22,506 bases of DNA, taken from positions 1-22,506 of IMG/VR virus record IMGVR_UViG_3300008996_000049; one strand, written 5' to 3'. A program made the translations under genes and the position numbers. Source of the stretch: a virus. The notes below the pieces were generated by a model. That model had not been told where the DNA came from, did no database searches, and saw only the letters and a list, made by a program, of their open reading frames with translations. Below are positions 1 to 20,254 of this stretch, in pieces (the stretch's first letter is position 1; each line of letters starts with the position of its first letter).

Positions 1-452
1 AATTCAACGATCTGGAAGATCTTTGTGCGTAGAAGCTTAAGATCACCTTGTTGAGTTAATAGAATAGTATTCTTGTAATGCTGCCAATTGATTCTGTAGT
101 TTATATCTACAATGCCTTCATTGAGGCTCTTAATCAATTCATTTAAAGCATTAATTGTATAGAGAGTATTAGTCTCTTTTTTCCTATGAACTAGGATTGT
201 ATTTTCTGGAATGTTATTAATGTTAGGTTGATCGACGTTATAAGTACAAACGTACTCGTCGTTACTCTTAATATGCAAAACAAAAATCTTATTGTATAAA
301 ATAGTATATTCGCTAGATATGTCCTTTATAAAAGAATCCACTTCATTTAGTGGTACGAATGTACAAAATAACTTATTATTCACGTCTCCGGTATTGATAG
401 TTTCTCTATCATAAATATCAAAGGGGCTGTAAAGTGTTGTAGTCTGGTCCAT
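1..452 (-). CDS. Unknown protein, C-terminus cut by left edge
   Basis: This reading frame is open from an ATG at 452-450 to the left edge (150 codons, no stop), so the gene is incomplete. It starts inside the end of the family A DNA polymerase gene and overlaps it by 35 nt in another frame, which suggests translational coupling. The protein begins MDQTTTLYSPFDIYDRET and has alternating hydrophobic and aromatic strands (for example around FCTFVPL and ILYNKIFVLHI), a mixed charged middle, and a segment with NWQHYKNTILL near the edge. I see no signal peptide, membrane segment or catalytic motif and do not recognise the family. Its position just after a polymerase makes a replication-associated role possible, but that is inference only. 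The start is chosen because it is the only ATG in the frame near the 5' end. Confidence 0.72.
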   Translation of the reverse strand, partial: MDQTTTLYSPFDIYDRETINTGDVNNKLFCTFVPLNEVDSFIKDISSEYTILYNKIFVLHIKSNDEYVCTYNVDQPNINNIPENTILVHRKKETNTLYTINALNELIKSLNEGIVDINYRINWQHYKNTILLTQQGDLKLLRTKIFQIVE

Positions 453-1701
453 AACTTGTTTTTATTTGTAGGTTTTTGTCTTTAAATACTGTTAATATCT
501 GCTTAATCTCTTCTTTATCCTGCTTATTAACATCTAATAAGAAAGCATCATAAGTATAAAGTACTAATTTTGTCTCCTTATTATTAATAATATAGATGAT
601 TTCTTTAAGGATTGCAACGTTGCTGTAAGTTTCCCAATGCTGAATAACATAATTGAACAGTTTCTGTGGGTTCATATTAGGTAAGTCGTCTTTCTTAAAC
701 ACCTTTCCAGTCTCTTGAACTACGTACTTACCTTTACTGCTGAACGTATTCCAGATCTCTTCAATAAGCTTCTGAGTTAACTGAAAGAATTCAAAGTCTC
801 TGTATTGATCGAAGATATGCCCGTATAGCTGCTTGAATACTAGACTCTTTGCTTCTGCTCGGTCCATTCCGTACTTGGCTGCAAAATCTTCGTAGATATC
901 CCCGGTCGGTGAATCATAACCAACCATCTGTCCAATCAACGTAGGATGGTAGGCTGTCAAGTCAATCTCTAATAAAAAATCGTTTCTCGGTATAAAAACC
1001 GATCTAGAACCGTTTTCTTTAGGTAGAGCAGCAAAGTTTAAGCTATTAAACGTATTTGAAGGTCGGCCGGTGGTAGTATTGAGGTTGTATTGAGAGAATG
1101 TATAAGAGTTATAGCGGGATAGAAAGGGTCTCTTTAACTCAAAGTATCTTTCAAAGGCACTATTAACCTTCAAACCGTTTCTTTCTATAAACCAGAATAC
1201 ATTCGATAGATCATCGTGATATTCGTTAGGAATATACCGCTTAATTACTGGGACATACTCATCGAATATAATCTCACACTGCTCAAAATGCTTTACTATT
1301 GGTATGATTGAGTTTAGATCTTCACTTTCATAGTACCTCTGAGAGTAGAATAGGTGAGTGGGAGTCTGCTTTTTTACTTCCTTATACTCTGATAAATTAA
1401 GATCGTAGGTATTTGAACCGAAATACGAATGACTCAATGCTTTTTTGTCCGGAGTATAAATTTTCTTAAAAGTTCTTAGGTATTCTTTGACCTGTAAGGG
1501 GTCAAACTGTAATGCTTCCGGATGGAAGTAGTTGACCAGGAAGCCTTTCGGCTGAGTAACGTCCCTGAGATAAAGACATAACGGAGCATAAATGCCCGGA
1601 TGAATTTCCGGATGAGTATGAATAGGAACTACGAATATTTCCGGTCCTAATTCAAATTGTAACTTATCGAACTGCTCTTGCGTCTCTACTAACCAAAACA
1701 T
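418..1701 (-). CDS. Divergent family A DNA polymerase, no intact exonuclease
   Basis: Template-directed DNA synthesis is indicated by the family A palm and fingers motifs in order: T-T-G-R-P-S at residues 210-215 followed by N-F-A-A-L-P; motif A with Asp247 (EIDLTAYHPT); motif B with R281, K285, F289, Y293 and G294, exactly the spacing of the Pol I O-helix R-x3-K-x3-F-x3-YG; a Q-helix-like region near QHWETYSN; and motif C with Asp385 (YTYDAFLL). Both metal-binding aspartates are kept, but the usual motif A Glu is replaced (AYHPT) and motif C reads YDA instead of HDE. At 427 residues it is far shorter than Pol I. The first 150 residues look like a worn 3'-5' exonuclease fold without its acidic residues (PIHTHP where D-x-E is expected). 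It lies directly downstream of virion genes. Whether it is the main replicase is unknown. Confidence 0.88.
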   Translation of the reverse strand: MFWLVETQEQFDKLQFELGPEIFVVPIHTHPEIHPGIYAPLCLYLRDVTQPKGFLVNYFHPEALQFDPLQVKEYLRTFKKIYTPDKKALSHSYFGSNTYDLNLSEYKEVKKQTPTHLFYSQRYYESEDLNSIIPIVKHFEQCEIIFDEYVPVIKRYIPNEYHDDLSNVFWFIERNGLKVNSAFERYFELKRPFLSRYNSYTFSQYNLNTTTGRPSNTFNSLNFAALPKENGSRSVFIPRNDFLLEIDLTAYHPTLIGQMVGYDSPTGDIYEDFAAKYGMDRAEAKSLVFKQLYGHIFDQYRDFEFFQLTQKLIEEIWNTFSSKGKYVVQETGKVFKKDDLPNMNPQKLFNYVIQHWETYSNVAILKEIIYIINNKETKLVLYTYDAFLLDVNKQDKEEIKQILTVFKDKNLQIKTSYGPDYNTLQPL

Positions 1702-1743
1702 AACCTTTCAATAAAGATAGTAGATTGTCTTCGGAAAACCTAC

Positions 1744-2367
1744 TTAGATTGCAAATTCGGTGTAGTTTGTAATATATTGAGATAATCCGTAGACTTTTTC
1801 TCTATTTTCAGTTAGAAATACTATCTTGCGGTTGGTCTGCTCTATTTCACTCCTAGAAGCTTTTCCGGTAGTCCAGGGTAAAAAAAATGCAATATAGGAG
1901 GGCCAGTTATAGGATTTATCTTTACTTTGTATCAAATTGTATTGCTCTAAGTTTATTTCGATAAAGTTAGCGCTATTAACTCTTTTTACAAAGTATCTCC
2001 TAAAAGACGGGTAGGAAGCTACTGGAAGGGTGTAGGTTGGTTCGATTAAACTTGTTGGTGGGTATTCAATTTGATTTTCATTTCTAATATTATCGTAAGA
2101 TATTTTAGAGATACCGAATCCGTATACTTTAAAAACAGATGTTGGTGATGTTTGAAAGCTTTCCGGTTCAGTAGAGCTTCTACTATTATAATTTTTAATG
2201 TATTCTAATTCAAGAATCTGACCGTCAGTTGGTGTTTTTCCTGAGTATACTTCTCCGGAGGCTATTATGTGGTAGTATCCCTGGTATGGCGTTCTAGAAT
2301 CTTTGTATATCAGTTCTCTCCCGTTAGTATACTGGTCTGGTATTATTTTAGATTTAGGAAAATACAT
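1744..2367 (-). CDS. Probable virion or baseplate protein, unrecognised family
   Basis: The product has 207 residues, is soluble, and is rich in Tyr, Ser and Pro (MYFPKSKIIPDQYTNGRE, then PYQGYYHIIASGEVYSGKTP). It has no signal peptide, membrane segment or catalytic motif that I can see. The G-Y-Y...G-x-x-Y-x-G-K-x-P pattern looks like a small beta-rich structural domain. A mixed helical and aromatic C-terminal half follows (INLEQYNLI, SYNWPSYIAFFLPW). Only one base separates its start from the stop of the upstream lysozyme-like gene, so the two are surely co-transcribed, and I infer a tail or baseplate role from that position. AAGGAGG lies 14 nt before the ATG, too far for a normal ribosome site, and it also encodes the end of the upstream protein. 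A dedicated function cannot be assigned. Confidence 0.75.
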   Translation of the reverse strand: MYFPKSKIIPDQYTNGRELIYKDSRTPYQGYYHIIASGEVYSGKTPTDGQILELEYIKNYNSRSSTEPESFQTSPTSVFKVYGFGISKISYDNIRNENQIEYPPTSLIEPTYTLPVASYPSFRRYFVKRVNSANFIEINLEQYNLIQSKDKSYNWPSYIAFFLPWTTGKASRSEIEQTNRKIVFLTENREKVYGLSQYITNYTEFAI

Positions 2368-2368
2368 A

Positions 2369-3073
2369 TTAGTTGAAACCGCCTCCTTGTAAAATTATGC
2401 TTCGAATCTTATCTCCGCCAGTATTAATTAATGAATCAGTAGATTTCTGTCTTGTTTCAACAAATATATTTGTTAAAGTACCGGAATTTTTTACACCGTA
2501 CTTTTTATAGGAGCTAGTTATTCTTTCTGCAAATCCTTTAAACCATCTATCTCCGTTCCAGCAAGCGTATACAAAGTTAAAGAGTAATCTTCCATCTGAT
2601 TCTATAAGTGTTTTTAATTCTTTATCTTTAATATAAGCATTCATTAGTCTTTCATAACGAACTTCTAACATTTTAGCTGCTAGTGTTACTAGTTCTCCTT
2701 GCAGTGGATCGGGTGGGATATAATTATATCGCCACTTTTCATCTTTTTGAGCAGCTTCAATTTTTGCCCAGAATGCCTTTCCTTCTGTACTTGTGTTAAG
2801 TTCGGGTCCACCTGTTTTTCTATCAATGCCAAACATTGTTTCTCCGCTTTTAGCATACAAAGGTCCTGCGTTGTGGTAGACGGGGTTGTAGTATCCGCCT
2901 TCTAGGTATGCAATTACTTGTCTTGTTACTTTTAAGAAATCTTTTGTTTCTTTTGTGACCGGGTCTGCAGGAACGGAGGAGGATTTTGTACCCAAAAAAT
3001 TAATTCCCGGTCTGTTAACGTTTGCCGACAGTCTTTTTGTTTTAAAATCAGTACCTAAAAAAAAACTTCTCAT
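2369..3073 (-). CDS. Lysozyme-like peptidoglycan hydrolase (GH108-like)
   Basis: The protein has 234 residues. After a low-complexity N-terminal 40 residues it contains E58-G-G-Y-Y-N-P, then SGETMFGIDRKTGG at 76-89 and a Trp/Phe-rich FVYACWNGDRWFKGFA near 167-182. The E-G-G-Y followed shortly by a G-x-T-x-x-G-I-type segment resembles the GH108 N-acetylmuramidase family, in which the Glu of EGGY is catalytic; family assignment by eye is moderate. It would cut the glycan backbone of the cell wall. No signal peptide, spike domain or needle repeat is visible. It directly follows the two hub genes, so I favour a tail-associated lysozyme acting at entry, the job done in T4 by the lysozyme domain of gp5, over a lysis endolysin. 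No holin gene is in the window. The ATG has no Shine-Dalgarno sequence. Confidence 0.62.
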   Translation of the reverse strand: MRSFFLGTDFKTKRLSANVNRPGINFLGTKSSSVPADPVTKETKDFLKVTRQVIAYLEGGYYNPVYHNAGPLYAKSGETMFGIDRKTGGPELNTSTEGKAFWAKIEAAQKDEKWRYNYIPPDPLQGELVTLAAKMLEVRYERLMNAYIKDKELKTLIESDGRLLFNFVYACWNGDRWFKGFAERITSSYKKYGVKNSGTLTNIFVETRQKSTDSLINTGGDKIRSIILQGGGFN

Positions 3074-3093
3074 ATCTTATAACTATATTTTAA

Positions 3094-4371
3094 TTAATCT
3101 TCTTTTAGTACTGTTAATGTAGATAATTTTGTTATCCACTGTCCGTCATTACTAACTTCATGGCTAACCCCTAATACCATTAAATCAAATTGATCACTGT
3201 ATGTATACGGTAGTATATCACTAGTAATATCAAAACGTTCAAAAATCTTGATTCCGCTTATACCAGCTAGAGTTAGATTTATCTTGACCGGTATAAAAGT
3301 TGTTGAAGTTTGTTTATCTTCTGTAAATTTACCTAATAGTGCTTTGTATAATTCTACTGGGATATTCTCCAGATTACCAGTGGTAGCGTCCTTGTATGTG
3401 TAGGTTATTTTATTATCCTTTTCTATTTGGTTGAGAATAATTTTCTTATATGCTTCAACAGTATTATTAAATTGGGTTTCCTGTTGCTTCTCTTTTGTTA
3501 GGTCTATGTCTTTTGGTTTAGGAGAATTTTTTATATTTTTCTCTGTATAGAATCTATCTACTAATCCTTTGCTTAACCTGCTAAATGTTGTTGCTTCTTC
3601 ACCTAATTGGTTTCCATTTGCTTGAGCTCCAATACTAATAGTCGTAGCGATATCTGGTGTAATTGCGCTTTGTGCAGAAAATCCTATTACAAATGATCCT
3701 AATCCCTGAGCTTTTATTCTTGTTATTTTTTTAGTTGCTGGGGAATTTAAATTTTTAATTCTTTTTTGGTTAAAGTCTATAATTGTTAATTCATTTTTAT
3801 CTTCATCTATAATTGCTTGAAAATCGTTAATGCTACCTAATGCTTTTCCGACTACATCACAGACTTCCTGTAGGTAGTTTTTAACACTGATTTTATTTTC
3901 AGCGTTATTACTTCCTTTAAGTATTAATCCGGACAGGTATGCTACATTAAGATATATGTAATTTAGATTACCAATGGTTGGGTATATAGAGTAGTCTTTA
4001 GGTTCAGCAGCTTTTTCCATAGACTCTTGCAGCTTCTTTATAGCTGTATTTTCAAATTGAGTAAAAGGTTTAAATTTACTTTTTTCATAAATTCCGTCAG
4101 TGGTCCCTACGTAGTCGTTGCATAAATAGCATTTTAGTAAATTACAAGATACACTAGTTGAATATGCAAAAAAAGGTTTTTCAGATTCCCAATCAATCTT
4201 TACGACTGGGGCATCGTCAGGACCAACTAGATTTATATACTCTGAAGTAAATTTTAAGAGTGTTTGAAATGAAATATAGATCTCAGCGCCGGCGTCACTA
4301 AATTGGAGTACGTTAACACCGCCAAAGTCTTTTTCGGTTATCTCCTCTATAAAAGCCGTATACTGTCCCAT
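3094..4371 (-). CDS. Baseplate hub protein, second part
   Basis: The 425-residue product begins MGQYTAFIEEITEKDF and is mostly beta-rich. A region around TISIGAQANGNQLGEE is followed by SKGLVDRFYTEK, a charged helical insert, and a C-terminal strand pattern ending VLGVSHEVSNDGQWITKLSTL. A final V-x-G-V-x-H-x-V...W-x-T-x-L element is typical of hub barrels of the gp27/gpD type, which close the end of the tail tube and hold the spike. A short N-terminal segment contains a Cys pair (CYLCNDY near 81-87). The gene starts only 6 nt after the stop of the upstream hub-like gene, so the two are probably translated together. I infer that together they supply the two tube-like barrels usually found in one hub chain. 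Function is inferred from pattern and context. Confidence 0.6.
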   Translation of the reverse strand: MGQYTAFIEEITEKDFGGVNVLQFSDAGAEIYISFQTLLKFTSEYINLVGPDDAPVVKIDWESEKPFFAYSTSVSCNLLKCYLCNDYVGTTDGIYEKSKFKPFTQFENTAIKKLQESMEKAAEPKDYSIYPTIGNLNYIYLNVAYLSGLILKGSNNAENKISVKNYLQEVCDVVGKALGSINDFQAIIDEDKNELTIIDFNQKRIKNLNSPATKKITRIKAQGLGSFVIGFSAQSAITPDIATTISIGAQANGNQLGEEATTFSRLSKGLVDRFYTEKNIKNSPKPKDIDLTKEKQQETQFNNTVEAYKKIILNQIEKDNKITYTYKDATTGNLENIPVELYKALLGKFTEDKQTSTTFIPVKINLTLAGISGIKIFERFDITSDILPYTYSDQFDLMVLGVSHEVSNDGQWITKLSTLTVLKED

Positions 4372-11133: not shown

Positions 11134-11439
11134 TTATCCATACGATAGTTTTTTACCTTTAGCGTAATCCGGTACCTCTACTTGGCCGTTTTTAATTTTC
11201 TTAGCCAATTCTTCAGGATTTTCGTTTTGCTTGTTTTGCTTTTCGTAATGCTCCTTTATTTGATGAAATATGTATTTTCTCATATGAATAGGTAATTCAT
11301 AGACTTCAGTAAAAGAATACCCTCCTTGCCCGTGAAAAACTATTTGGTGTACCTGATCGAATACAAACCTTCTATGTTCAGGCGTCAGGCCAAAAAAAGC
11401 TAGCGTTAATGGGTAGTGAGATATCCTCCTCGATATCAT
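11134..11439 (-). CDS. Tail assembly chaperone second part, probably frameshift-expressed
   Basis: The frame encodes up to 101 residues from an ATG at 11439, but the convincing part starts after the T7 run: F-F-G-L-T-P-E-H-R-R-F-V-F-D-Q-V-H-Q-I-V, then HGQGGYSFTEVYELP and a helical charged tail. H-G-x-G-G-[YF]-[ST]...[VY]-Y-x-[ML]-P resembles the small T4 gp51-like or T-type partner of tail chaperones (recognised by pattern, moderate). It overlaps the upstream chaperone by 62 nt. Ribosomes shifting +1 at 11392-11398 would make a fused protein of about 325 residues (240 plus 85). The alternative is separate initiation at 11439, whose first 14 residues are merely another reading of the upstream gene. 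It stands right before the tape measure gene, where G/GT-type pairs are found. Its role is tape measure or baseplate assembly, not part of the finished virion. Confidence 0.72.
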   Translation of the reverse strand: MISRRISHYPLTLAFFGLTPEHRRFVFDQVHQIVFHGQGGYSFTEVYELPIHMRKYIFHQIKEHYEKQNKQNENPEELAKKIKNGQVEVPDYAKGKKLSYG

Positions 11440-12112
11440 TGGCAGTAACTGTAACTGTTAGGTTGATATCCGGCTGAACGGATCTGGTATAATCTCTTAA
11501 CGCTTTGGAGTCCCGGGCAAGTAGTAAAGTATCTACAAAAGATCTAATTGTTCCTGGCTCTCTTACTCCATCAACTGAGGTTATAATGTATTTTAGACGG
11601 GTTGATAATTCTGGAGAAGCATCTTTGTTTAGCTTCTTTAATCCTGTAAGTTCTTGTCTAATCTTTTCATCATCGCCTACTGTTAAGATTTTGAATGTAA
11701 TATCTGTCTTTGAGTAAGGTAATGTGAATTTAAATTCATTAACGTTAGGAGTAATTAAAGACTCATCAAAAGGTTTATCTTCTAATGTAGTCAAATCAAT
11801 TACCTGCTTTTCTCCTTTGAAGGTGAATTCATAATCTTTTCCGTAACCTAGGATACGAGCTGCAATCATTACAGCATTCTGATCTCCTGTTACTAGTTGA
11901 GTGTAATCAATATCACTTACAATTAAGGATTGTAGTAATTTGTCAATTACAATACCTCTTTGAAGGTAATTTTGATTGGTTAAGATGTCTTCCTCTTTGG
12001 CTGTCATGTATTTCATTTCAAGCTTTCCGGAAGCGAGTGGGGAATCTTTAGGGTAAAGTAATCCTTTTGAAGGAAGATCAATAACCTCTGTTGGGAATTT
12101 AAATTCTGACAT
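11378..12112 (-). CDS. Tail assembly chaperone, T4 gp26-like
   Basis: The 244-residue protein begins MSEFKFPTEVIDLPSKGLLY, then SPLASGKLEMKYMTAKEEDI, with a helical middle (IDKLLQSLIV) and a mixed region with LPYSKTDITFKILTVGDDE. The P-S-K-G-x-x-Y...G-x-[LI]-x-x-[KR]-x-[ML]-[TK]-x-x-E-E-D pattern is what I know from T4 gp26-type baseplate and chaperone proteins just upstream of tape measure genes. It has no membrane segment. It ends ...S-F-F-W-P-D-A, and the second TTT codon sits at a run of seven T, so a fraction of ribosomes may enter the 11134-11439 frame. The gene has its own leader with a 15-base sequence (12132-12146) identical to that of the sheath gene. No Shine-Dalgarno sequence; the leader before the ATG is A-rich. 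Confidence 0.78.
   Translation of the reverse strand: MSEFKFPTEVIDLPSKGLLYPKDSPLASGKLEMKYMTAKEEDILTNQNYLQRGIVIDKLLQSLIVSDIDYTQLVTGDQNAVMIAARILGYGKDYEFTFKGEKQVIDLTTLEDKPFDESLITPNVNEFKFTLPYSKTDITFKILTVGDDEKIRQELTGLKKLNKDASPELSTRLKYIITSVDGVREPGTIRSFVDTLLLARDSKALRDYTRSVQPDINLTVTVTANDIEEDISLPINASFFWPDA
11392..11398 (-). other. Candidate +1 ribosomal frameshift site
   Basis: The coding strand reads AGC TTT TTT TGG in the first frame. A Phe-tRNA slipping one base forward on the seven-T run re-pairs perfectly with TTT and the next codon becomes GGC, entering the 11134-11439 frame. The -1 frame closes almost at once (GCC TGA), so -1 is excluded. An AGGAGG lies about 26 nt upstream, too far to be a clear stimulator. 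Confidence 0.6.
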
Positions 12113-12160: not shown

Positions 12161-12667
12161 TTAAACGTCCACTAGAACGTAACTTCCTTTATAATTCATA
12201 ACGTTTGTAGGTGACCAATCAATTTCATCTGGGTTGATACCTACTTGTTTAAATGCTTCTTTTAATCCGGTTAAAAACTCTTTTAATTTATCTGAAAGGT
12301 CTATATTTAGTTCTTCATCATATACTAGGAAGTCTTCTGCTTTAGTTCCGTTAATTGAGATTTCCTGACTCTCTTCTTCTGCTAGTTGTTCAGCATCCAC
12401 CATGTCAATGATCCCAGTTCTTTTATCAGGTAGAATTTCTACGTTTGTGATAGGGATAATGCATGTGAAAGAATGGTTTAACAGTTTCTCAGCGTGTTCT
12501 AGCTCATCAACATCTGTGGTAAGCTTCTTTACTGTGCTTCCTTTTTGAAGTGCAATGCCATTATCTCCACCTCCTAACACTGTCCAGCCTTCGTCTTTGA
12601 GTTTTGATAACTCTTTTTTTAATCCGGGTGGAAGAATAACTTCGTTTAGTAGCTGTATGAGTTTCAT
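12161..12667 (-). CDS. Mini protein kinase with capsid-targeting-like leader
   Basis: The 168-residue protein has a compressed protein-kinase layout. The Gly loop L-G-G-G-D-N-G is at 31-37 (GxGxxG), and a Lys pair (VKK, 46-48) sits in the place of the ATP-binding lysine. Helix-C-like acidic residues follow (DELEHAEKL). A hinge-like strand reads IIDMVDAEQL. The catalytic loop I-D-W-S-P-T-N-V-M at 149-157 aligns with H-x-D-L-x-P-x-N-I-L: Asp150 and Asn155 are kept. V-D-V at 166-168 stands where the DFG Asp (D167) is expected, and the chain stops right there. The activation segment and remaining C-lobe helices are absent. The N-terminus MKLIQLLNEV matches that of the 16409-16723 protein and fits a T4-style capsid-targeting peptide with an L-N-E cleavage site (L7-N8-E9). 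It lies between tube and chaperone genes. Substrate is unknown; a degenerate, non-catalytic fold is possible. Confidence 0.68.
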   Translation of the reverse strand: MKLIQLLNEVILPPGLKKELSKLKDEGWTVLGGGDNGIALQKGSTVKKLTTDVDELEHAEKLLNHSFTCIIPITNVEILPDKRTGIIDMVDAEQLAEEESQEISINGTKAEDFLVYDEELNIDLSDKLKEFLTGLKEAFKQVGINPDEIDWSPTNVMNYKGSYVLVDV

Positions 12668-12671
12668 GTAA

Positions 12672-12704
12672 TAAAAAAGCCCTCTCTAATAAATAGGAGG
12701 GCTC
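12672..12704 (-). terminator. Rho-independent terminator after tail tube gene
   Basis: A perfect 7-bp stem, AGCCCTC with GAGGGCT, is followed by TTTTTT on the coding strand. The 12-nt loop holds CTATTTATTAG, a variant of the late element. It ends the sheath-tube transcript before the mini kinase gene and is the clearest terminator in the window. Confidence 0.85.
12687..12695 (-). promoter_or_regulatory. TATTTATTA variant inside terminator loop
   Basis: Variant of the late element, 19 nt before the mini kinase start, lying in the loop of the terminator hairpin. The same 11 bases (CTATTTATTAG) precede the gp13-like gene. Promoter function is inferred. Confidence 0.4.
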
Positions 12705-12725: not shown

Positions 12726-13214
12726 TTAGAAGTTCAATACACAATAATCCATTCCTAAAGTTAAGGTAATATTTTGTGCTGCTGTATCGTTATCGAAGTT
12801 TAAGTCACCAAAAGCAGCATTTTTTACAAAAGCTCCCTTTAATACCCATTCTGACACGATATCACCTACTGGTCCAACTATGTCGATTACGACATCTTTT
12901 TTGTAGAAGTCAGAGTAACCATCACGTCCAGTTACAGATTCATGGTGTAGACGTACCCACTCCATTACTGCCTGTGCTCCTGAAGGAGTAATAGGATCGA
13001 ATAAGGTTAAAGTTACATCGTTCCATCTCAACTTACCTTTGATTTTACGGTAGATGTTGATGTGGTTCATTATAATTTCTCCTTGTTCGAAGCCCAATCC
13101 GGTAATTCCCTTAATAATATAAGTTGGAATACCGTCAACGTACATAATAAATCTATTCTGTACTTTGGGTTCAAACGCGGTAAAGAATATTTCGTCTGCT
13201 GTTAAAATTGCCAT
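12726..13214 (-). CDS. Tail tube protein (T4 gp19-like)
   Basis: The 162-residue protein forms the stacked hexameric rings of the inner tail tube. Length matches the gp19 family (about 160). Typical elements are an N-terminal strand NRFIMYVDGIPTYIIKGITG, GEIIMNHINIYRKIKGKLRW with the conserved strand-turn region, L-T-L-F-D-P-I-x-P-S-G, a helix with MEWVRLHHESVTGRDGYSDF, and a C-terminal beta pattern (WVLKGAFVKNAAFGDLNF) ending with a strand (ITLTLGMDYCVLNF). It directly follows the sheath gene and precedes a strong terminator, the usual sheath-tube order. A TATTTATA element lies 12 nt before the ATG, so it may have extra promoter activity to raise its copy number. The call is firm. Confidence 0.93.
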   Translation of the reverse strand: MAILTADEIFFTAFEPKVQNRFIMYVDGIPTYIIKGITGLGFEQGEIIMNHINIYRKIKGKLRWNDVTLTLFDPITPSGAQAVMEWVRLHHESVTGRDGYSDFYKKDVVIDIVGPVGDIVSEWVLKGAFVKNAAFGDLNFDNDTAAQNITLTLGMDYCVLNF

Positions 13215-16408: not shown

Positions 16409-16723
16409 TTATATCTCTTCAATTTTTTGTAATTGTTTGGTACTATATTTAAATTTCTTTAAAGTAGGAATGGTCGCCATTGCTTCTTTTTTAATTAATT
16501 CAAAAGTTTCCTGTCCAGGCTTTAATGTAACTACTTTTAATTGAAGTAATCCTCTTGGATTTAAATCTTCTTTATCAGTTTTATTGTTTACGACAGTAAC
16601 ATAACGTAGACCTCTAATCAACTGAGCGATATCAGTAATATTAGTTTCATCGGAAAATTCAACATAAACCAAATTTTTGTACATTGAGTATGTTACTTCG
16701 TTTAATAGATCTGTTAATCTCAT
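16409..16723 (-). CDS. Small ferredoxin-fold-like protein with capsid-targeting-like leader
   Basis: The 104-residue protein starts MRLTDLLNEV, matching in position and pattern the leader of the mini kinase. It has an L7-N8-E9 site of the kind cut by T4-type prohead proteases. After it come a strand (NLVYVEFSD), a helix (ITDIAQLIRGL), a strand (YVTVVNNK), a strand (LLQLKVVTLKP) and a helix (ETFELIKKEAMATI) with a basic end. This beta-alpha-beta-beta-alpha order suggests a small ferredoxin-like or ACT-like fold; this is by eye. It lies between gp13-like and gp14-like genes and shares the base A of TAATG with the gp13-like stop. A TATTTATA copy 5 nt before the start lies in the end of the gp13-like coding region. 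Likely packaged or a head-neck assembly factor; the molecular role is unknown. Confidence 0.72.
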   Translation of the reverse strand: MRLTDLLNEVTYSMYKNLVYVEFSDETNITDIAQLIRGLRYVTVVNNKTDKEDLNPRGLLQLKVVTLKPGQETFELIKKEAMATIPTLKKFKYSTKQLQKIEEI

Positions 16724-19024: not shown

Positions 19025-20254
19025 CTAAAAAAGCATGTAATCTCCTACAAATTTAATTTTTTCGGAAGAATCCATCATTACTTTTAATATTTCATGATTT
19101 ACTAAATCAGGATGTACCCACCAGTCCTCAAATGTGCTATTTTTATCGGGAGCAATATCGCCAACTACCATAATATATCCTTTACTTTCTAAAAACTTTC
19201 TTGATTTTGACCTATAAGACTTAGTTTCGTCGGCGTAGTAATCATGTTCATAGGTAATTACAGCAAATTTATAATCGTCAAAAGGAATTTTTTCTAATAC
19301 TTGGTAAGTAATGTCGGCAGGCTCACAATCAATCTGAAGATAATCAATTGTATTTTTAGATGTAAGTGCTTTTAGTTCTTCTTTATAGTCAATATTTAAA
19401 GCATTTAACATTAAGATAGGACCGTTCCTGTCTGTTTCTAGGAATTTTTCTACTTCTAAAGGATTAATTTCAACCGATATTCCTTTCCAGTTAAATTTCT
19501 TTTCTAGTAAGTAGGTATTATTGTTGTAAATTGGATCTGCAGTTCCTATTTCTAAATAAGTTCCTTTTGTTTTTCCATTTAACATAGTTAAAACAAACAT
19601 ATCCTGGTATACTTGAGAGTAGTTTTGCTGTATTTTATCGACTCCTTTAAATTGATGTCTTAAACTACTTTGCAAATCTGAAGTATATGGGGCCTTGAAG
19701 TACATTTCTCCTTTGGTTAATTTAAGATTCTTGTAAGTATCGTTAACGTATTGAGTAGACATTTCGTAGTTCTTTAACAACTCACCAAACATTCTCCTAG
19801 CATCATCTCTTCCTCCTATGTACCAAATTGTAACTGCTTTCTGGAATAAAATTACATATTTACCTTCGTACCCAATATAAGTACGGGTTGGTATAGCATT
19901 ATCAGCATAGTATTCGGCTTGACAAATTGCATTATGCGCTTCATGCCACTCTACGTTCAGTTCATAAACCTGACTTAATATCCAGAATGCTTCCGGGCGA
20001 GTGGGGCAGAGGTTAATTGCATGATAAAGCAAACTCTTAGTTGAAAATAACCTATACCCTTGTTTTTTAAATCCTAGAGCGGCTTTAATTAATGCTTCAT
20101 AAGTTAAATTATCATCATTTGATAATTCGGCTGTTCTTAAATAAAAAGAAACTGCTGATGCTATATGGCCTTCTAGGTCATAAGTATAACCCACTTCAAA
20201 GTTTTTCTCTGCATTATATGGGTCAAAAATGTATTCTTGGATTTTATTGTTCAT
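19025..20254 (-). CDS. TPR protein fused to FkbM-type methyltransferase
   Basis: The 409-residue protein has two parts. Residues 1-190 are helical repeats of TPR type (for example IASAVSFYLRTAELSNDDNL, RPEAFWILSQVYELNVEWHE, KAVTIWYIGGRDDARRMFGE). Residues 205-395 are an FkbM-like SAM-dependent methyltransferase: Y-S-Q-V-Y-Q-D at the entry, G-T-Y-L-E-I-G-T-A-D-P at 231-241 (SAM motif I), NNNTYLLEKKFNWKGISVEI, I-D-Y-L-Q-I-D-C-E at 303-311, and E-H-D-Y-Y at 336-340, ending D-W-W-V-H-P. FkbM enzymes usually O-methylate sugars or polyketides, so a glycan substrate is inferred. The start overlaps the GH130-like stop by 11 nt, so the two act in one pathway, either virion glycan decoration or alteration of a host surface sugar. 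No signal peptide; cytoplasmic. Confidence 0.83.
   Translation of the reverse strand: MNNKIQEYIFDPYNAEKNFEVGYTYDLEGHIASAVSFYLRTAELSNDDNLTYEALIKAALGFKKQGYRLFSTKSLLYHAINLCPTRPEAFWILSQVYELNVEWHEAHNAICQAEYYADNAIPTRTYIGYEGKYVILFQKAVTIWYIGGRDDARRMFGELLKNYEMSTQYVNDTYKNLKLTKGEMYFKAPYTSDLQSSLRHQFKGVDKIQQNYSQVYQDMFVLTMLNGKTKGTYLEIGTADPIYNNNTYLLEKKFNWKGISVEINPLEVEKFLETDRNGPILMLNALNIDYKEELKALTSKNTIDYLQIDCEPADITYQVLEKIPFDDYKFAVITYEHDYYADETKSYRSKSRKFLESKGYIMVVGDIAPDKNSTFEDWWVHPDLVNHEILKVMMDSSEKIKFVGDYMLF

Follow-up and report, generated by a model that had tools for sequence, protein, structure and literature searches.

The window analysed here, a viral fragment of 22.5 kb, is colinear with the tail region of the Flavobacterium phage immuto, and the tail sheath proteins of the two are about 56% identical. 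The window belongs to a freshwater T4-like phage whose nearest isolated relative infects Flavobacterium. On its minus strand, the open reading frame running from position 12667 to position 12161 is a real gene of 168 codons (product P0001, the mini-kinase), with 66 related loci detected in IMG/VR by two scans; a reading-frame check shows that the plus strand is stop-rich over the same positions. The gene is located in the tail operon. It is flanked on one side by the tail tube gene expected there from the original prediction (12726-13214; PHROG tail tube profile, E 3e-23) and on the other side by the gene 11378-12112, previously taken for a chaperone gene, whose product matches baseplate hub and T4_baseplate profiles instead. 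A terminator-like hairpin (AGCCCTC...GAGGGCT followed by a T run; window 12673-12703, minus strand) ends about five bases before the start codon of the kinase. This hairpin, nearly letter-perfect in many relatives and without a match in Rfam, may be a terminator for the tube gene or a control element of kinase translation.

The protein P0001 contains the motifs G32-x-G34-x-x-G37 (GGGDNG), K47/K48, D150-W-S-P-T-N155-V-M and a terminal V-D167-V168. An alignment of 40 relatives reveals that G32, G34, D35, N36, G37, K48 and E55 are all invariant, as are the residues K2, L3, L7 and E9 of the N-terminal leader, and that no row reaching the positions of D150, N155 and D167 lacks these residues. In the relatives displaying 53-55% identity, residues 100-149 are mostly changed whereas the sequence I-D-W-x-x-x-N-I-M-N-Y-K-G-x-Y-V-L-V-D-V is kept, with the same stop point. 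The family comprises two other clades. The immuto homologue (146 amino acids, about 29-30% identical to the window kinase) belongs to a clade of 32 loci, and profile comparison shows that the window and immuto families are homologous, leader included (E 2e-15). The third clade, represented by the contigs L188 and L235, is 43% identical and was found between the tube and hub genes of sheath relatives. Across the three clades, the residues conserved without exception are those of the glycine-rich loop (residues 32-37, positions 12557-12574, minus strand; G32, G34, D35 and G37), K48 (12524-12526, minus strand), E55 (12503-12505, minus strand), N155 and D167; residue 168 is a conserved Val or Leu, and every complete member seen ends in D-V or D-L. 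In the catalytic loop D150-W-S-P-T-N155 (12203-12220, minus strand), D150 is kept in the window and L188 clades, which retain the full set Lys, Glu, Asp, Asn and Asp, and the catalytic Asp is missing from the Immutovirus clade.

Profile searches of Pfam, PHROGs, NCBIfam and PADLOC gave no match of note for this family, T7 gp0.7 itself being also missed by Pfam. Sequence searches of the PDB with the kinase returned nothing reliable, and a scan of bacterial genomes detected no relative of it. Weak matches of the protein P0002 with PHROG 15752 (E 0.15) and Pkinase (E 0.38) were considered as leads only.

The structure predicted by AlphaFold for the window clade (pLDDT 90.8, pTM 0.83) displays the kinase topology, and the immuto clade was modelled separately (pLDDT 86.8, pTM 0.78). 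Both models contain an N-lobe beta sheet with helix C, followed by the catalytic loop and the DFG strand pair. K48, the candidate ATP-binding lysine, lies inside the strand E45-50 (strand 3) and E55, the candidate glutamate of helix C, inside the helix 53-61. The presumed active-site geometry is taken from conservation and from alignment ranges rather than from model coordinates. The Foldseek matches listed in the PDB for the window-clade model are all kinases or aminoglycoside phosphotransferases, and the immuto-clade model also matches protein kinases in the PDB. The VIA Z scores to CDK2 are 9.7 and 10.2 for the window-clade and immuto-clade models, respectively. In a library of viral structures, T7-type kinases and small phage proteins without a name score best. 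Together with the conservation, the fold rules out a chance match of the motifs in P0001, and it is nearly certain that the family has a protein kinase fold. The glycine-rich loop, Lys, Glu, Asp, Asn and DFG Asp are all in place in the window and L188 clades. The original reading of the gene as a mini-kinase is borne out by structure prediction and fold search and, as described below, by profile homology to T7 gp0.7. The chain stops at the DFG position, as had also been noticed: in both models the last residue is aligned with the phenylalanine of DFG, residue 146 in CDK2, and residue 168 of P0001 is likewise superposed on MPS1 665 (D167-V168, 12164-12169, minus strand). The activation segment, the APE motif and the C-lobe helices F to I of canonical Hanks-type kinases are absent from every complete relative. 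P0001 is a protein-kinase-like domain devoid of activation segment and lower lobe.

The top single Foldseek match (E 5.9e-5) is APH(2'')-Ia, which would be expected if P0001 phosphorylated small molecules in the manner of aminoglycoside phosphotransferases. However, CK2 and CDC7 share this top rank among the Foldseek matches, the VIA rows are protein kinases, and the substrate-binding lobe of these phosphotransferases is missing from the mini-kinase. The homology described below also points to a Ser/Thr kinase of phage T7, and a small-molecule kinase is therefore very improbable.

Seven kinases of the gp0.7 type share the motifs G-x-G-x-F, Lys, D-x-H-x-x-N-x-M and I-T-D-P and have no conserved lobe beyond the last Asp (D213 in T7). 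When the alignment of the window and immuto clades was compared with the gp0.7 family using hhalign, a match was obtained over residues 16-166 (E 9e-7), in which D150, N155 and D167 are paired with D195, N200 and D213 of gp0.7. On rerunning, the score was 53, against at most 20 for 60 column-shuffled controls and 9 for reversed controls. Addition of the third clade gave E 5e-7, whereas the window clade alone is only weakly similar to gp0.7 (E 0.005), the significance requiring the two-clade alignment. The mini-kinase family is very likely homologous to T7 gp0.7. Like the latter (Autographiviridae, PHROG 15752), the mini-kinase possesses a glycine-rich loop, a Lys, the motif D-x-x-x-x-N-x-M and a terminal Asp after which no lower C-lobe is conserved. 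T7 gp0.7 differs by being the product of an early gene, by its size (about 40 kDa), its longer N-terminus and its C-terminal shut-off domain, and by having no leader comparable to that of the mini-kinase, whose chain stops one residue past the DFG Asp.

Since the activation segment, the P+1 loop and the lower lobe are missing, P0001 could be a pseudokinase, packaged or not, that binds ATP or a partner without transferring phosphate. The end of the chain at DFG is in line with such a function, and so is the Immutovirus clade, where the loss of the equivalent of D150 bars the normal mechanism for some members of the family. On the other hand, the window and L188 clades keep the Lys, Glu, Asp, Asn and Asp. 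Moreover, the N-terminal domain of gp0.7, of approximately 30 kDa, is an active, ATP-dependent Ser/Thr kinase (PMC4858673), although no lower lobe is conserved after D213; the truncated plan has therefore a biochemically active precedent. P0001 is likely to be an active kinase, and a pseudokinase is an appreciable but less probable alternative.

Kinases lacking the C-lobe were predicted in 2017 by Iyer et al. in phage polyvalent proteins escorting the DNA, and the parts of that paper concerned also describe stand-alone forms in phages of Bacteroidetes (PMC5512222). The original prediction had considered a packaged mini-kinase as unusual, a judgement tempered by this earlier account. As in the mini-kinase, the whole C-terminal subdomain is gone from the polyvalent-protein kinases, which are thought in these parts of the paper to travel with the phage DNA. 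The marks given there for them are a Glu before strand 2, a Gln in the last strand of the N-lobe, and a His with an insert before the Asp. By comparison with this description, none of them was seen in the mini-kinase family: there is no invariant Gln, the nearest candidate being position 94, just past the last strand, which is Q or P, and no conserved His precedes the catalytic Asp in the three-clade alignment. Judged by the same partial description, the mini-kinase family therefore seems to be a branch that runs parallel to these kinases or has diverged from them. A leader of the T4 type is not described for the polyvalent-protein kinases in the parts of the paper concerned, and in the literature we have found no direct report of a packaged phage kinase, nor of such a leader on such a kinase, nor any proteomic study of immuto virions. 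The leader appears consequently to be the new part, truncated kinases having been predicted before.

The leader MKLIQLLNE corresponds to residues 1-9 (12641-12667, minus strand). It lies outside the kinase fold and is modelled with low confidence in both clades (pLDDT 59 for the poorly ordered residues 1-10 in the window clade). Over the three clades it takes the forms MKLIQLLNE, MISIYNILKE and MKTLTE / MIKIKDLLAE, each followed by a variable linker. Its flanking residues and its length vary, and the only invariant residues are the L and the E of L-x-E (L7 and E9), that is, an N-terminus ending in L/I-x-E as in T4. The T4 protease gp21 cleaves after L/I-x-E (PMC9026906); it removes exactly ten residues from gp24 (PMC9958956), and Alt is cleaved at ITE-6 (PMC5694885). 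The N-terminus of T4 gp24, MAKINELLRE, resembles the leader of the mini-kinase, which is short and N-terminal and has the L/I-x-E site, like those of the T4 internal proteins and Alt; T4's own leaders differ from it in sequence.

The motif L-x-E is short and is expected by chance in about 3-5% of N-termini. A protein of 104 amino acids, unrelated in sequence and encoded in the operon of the kinase beside the neck gene (16409-16723, minus strand), carries the MKLxxLLNEV-type leader MRLTDLLNEV. Among all pairs of genes in the window, this one and the kinase are the most alike at the N-terminus, with identity at 7 of the first 10 residues against 5 for the next best pair, and the sharing of their leaders recurs across many contigs. 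The N-terminus of its immuto orthologue is MRKLVNEV.

The head genes of the window phage are outside the fragment, which ends short of them, and its own prohead protease is thus deduced from relatives. The protease of Immutovirus is a homologue of gp21 (E 4e-32), and the site QIVSE|A of Immutovirus gp23 aligns with FLTE|A of T4. A gp21 homologue is also present in the contig L177, which belongs to the sheath group of the window and whose sheath is 78% identical to that of the window. In immuto, the kinase gene is included in a cluster at 102-104 kb, outside the tail operon. In this cluster and at other places of the genome, unrelated proteins share the leader sets MENFDLKKFLVENK, MKKSQLRxIIKE and MKKQILSEQFxRMQxLAGIITES, and are candidates for a head-packaged set. 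Among isolate records, the Immutovirus leaders are common only to other immuto strains. A hydrophobic pair followed by x-E is found in 30 of the 233 immuto N-termini, against 5.3% expected (p 8e-6). Near the head genes, at 101-126 kb, 12 of 33 N-termini possess this motif, but the values obtained there (p 6e-8; Fisher test against the rest, 1.4e-4) are only indicative because the region was picked after inspection. The genes with shared leaders in immuto (MW353175) are at positions 1803, 25061, 102294, 102880, 103806, 111675, 113188, 117631 and 118632.

From the sequence evidence, the leader is probably a head-targeting peptide, with a predicted cleavage after E9. The head targeting of the original prediction is thereby supported indirectly, through the conservation and sharing of the leader and through the gp21 protease and gp23 site of relatives. 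The location of the gene in the tail operon, away from the head genes, argues against packaging, and would suit a late mini-kinase that acts in the infected cell without being packaged, the N-terminal helix being an ordinary docking helix. Yet this helix is of low confidence and outside the kinase fold, varies except for L-x-E, differs in length between clades and is common to an unrelated protein, which makes an unpackaged kinase rather unlikely.

Concerning the position between the tube and hub genes, it is empty in some sheath relatives and is occupied in others by the kinase, by a homing-endonuclease-like gene or by a small protein with the leader LAGIVNEA. The kinase occupies this slot in two clades and is elsewhere in Immutovirus. 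Profile searches detected no kinase in L177, L198 and other contigs, known carriers being matched with a slightly wider alignment; this result is consistent with a slot that is empty or different there. The variable content of the slot and the location in Immutovirus indicate that the kinase is an accessory cargo, like the T-even internal proteins. The retention of the slot in two clades could also suggest that the protein serves in tail assembly and has borrowed the kinase fold, but this role is very unlikely for a gene whose place is empty or taken by unrelated genes in many relatives, and which is accessory as judged from its location in Immutovirus.

With moderate confidence, we consider that the window encodes a mini protein kinase belonging to the same superfamily as T7 gp0.7 and placed behind a T4-type capsid-targeting leader, packed in the head, injected and phosphorylating the host. 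The kinase would be made late from the tail operon and drawn by its leader into the prohead core, where a gp21-type prohead protease would cut after the L-x-E (E9). The mature kinase would be kept in the head, accompany the DNA into the next host and phosphorylate host proteins at once. T7 gp0.7 also phosphorylates the host immediately, but from an early gene. T4 Alt likewise modifies host proteins from the head, but as an ADP-ribosyltransferase; in comparison with Alt, the packaging of the mini-kinase is a prediction. A more specific version is tentative: an active kinase reduced to N-lobe, catalytic loop and DFG Asp would be loaded by its leader, trimmed by the protease and injected, so as to phosphorylate host proteins ahead of all phage gene expression, and one lineage would carry a pseudokinase as cargo. 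If the proposed mechanism is true, the early host phosphorylation of T7 and the head delivery of T4 are joined in one small protein, which also shows how little of a protein kinase still works. The leader would then be a readable code for predicting, in the T4-like phages abundant in freshwater, which of their numerous unnamed proteins the virion carries, and phage immuto is an isolate permitting direct tests of packaging.

Other features were observed in the window and its relatives. In L153 (5297-6001) and L157, HNH-type homing-endonuclease-like genes, recognized by eye, lie between the tube and kinase genes, apparently at the hairpin. In L188 (3454-4413) and L235 (4959-5726), a neighbouring protein (MCGCGCNTCETKPAVLLNES...EILSEG) possesses two L/I-x-E sites close to the N-terminus, and its C-terminal part matches PHROG 7595. 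L235 also contains tandem tail sheath genes (180-4293) encoding proteins of 566 and 799 amino acids with similar ends. The contig L123 (56 kb, G017) has in-frame stops in both the kinase and the gp21-like protease, which may be due to errors, decay or another code. In the window, a protein of 409 amino acids from the structural region (19025-20254, minus strand) displays a weak match with FkbM methyltransferase in its C-terminal part. Finally, a protein of 427 amino acids (418-1701, minus strand) is encoded at the position of the 441-residue DNA polymerase family A protein of immuto; a second protein of this family (777 amino acids) is encoded elsewhere in the immuto genome, and the polymerase may be split.
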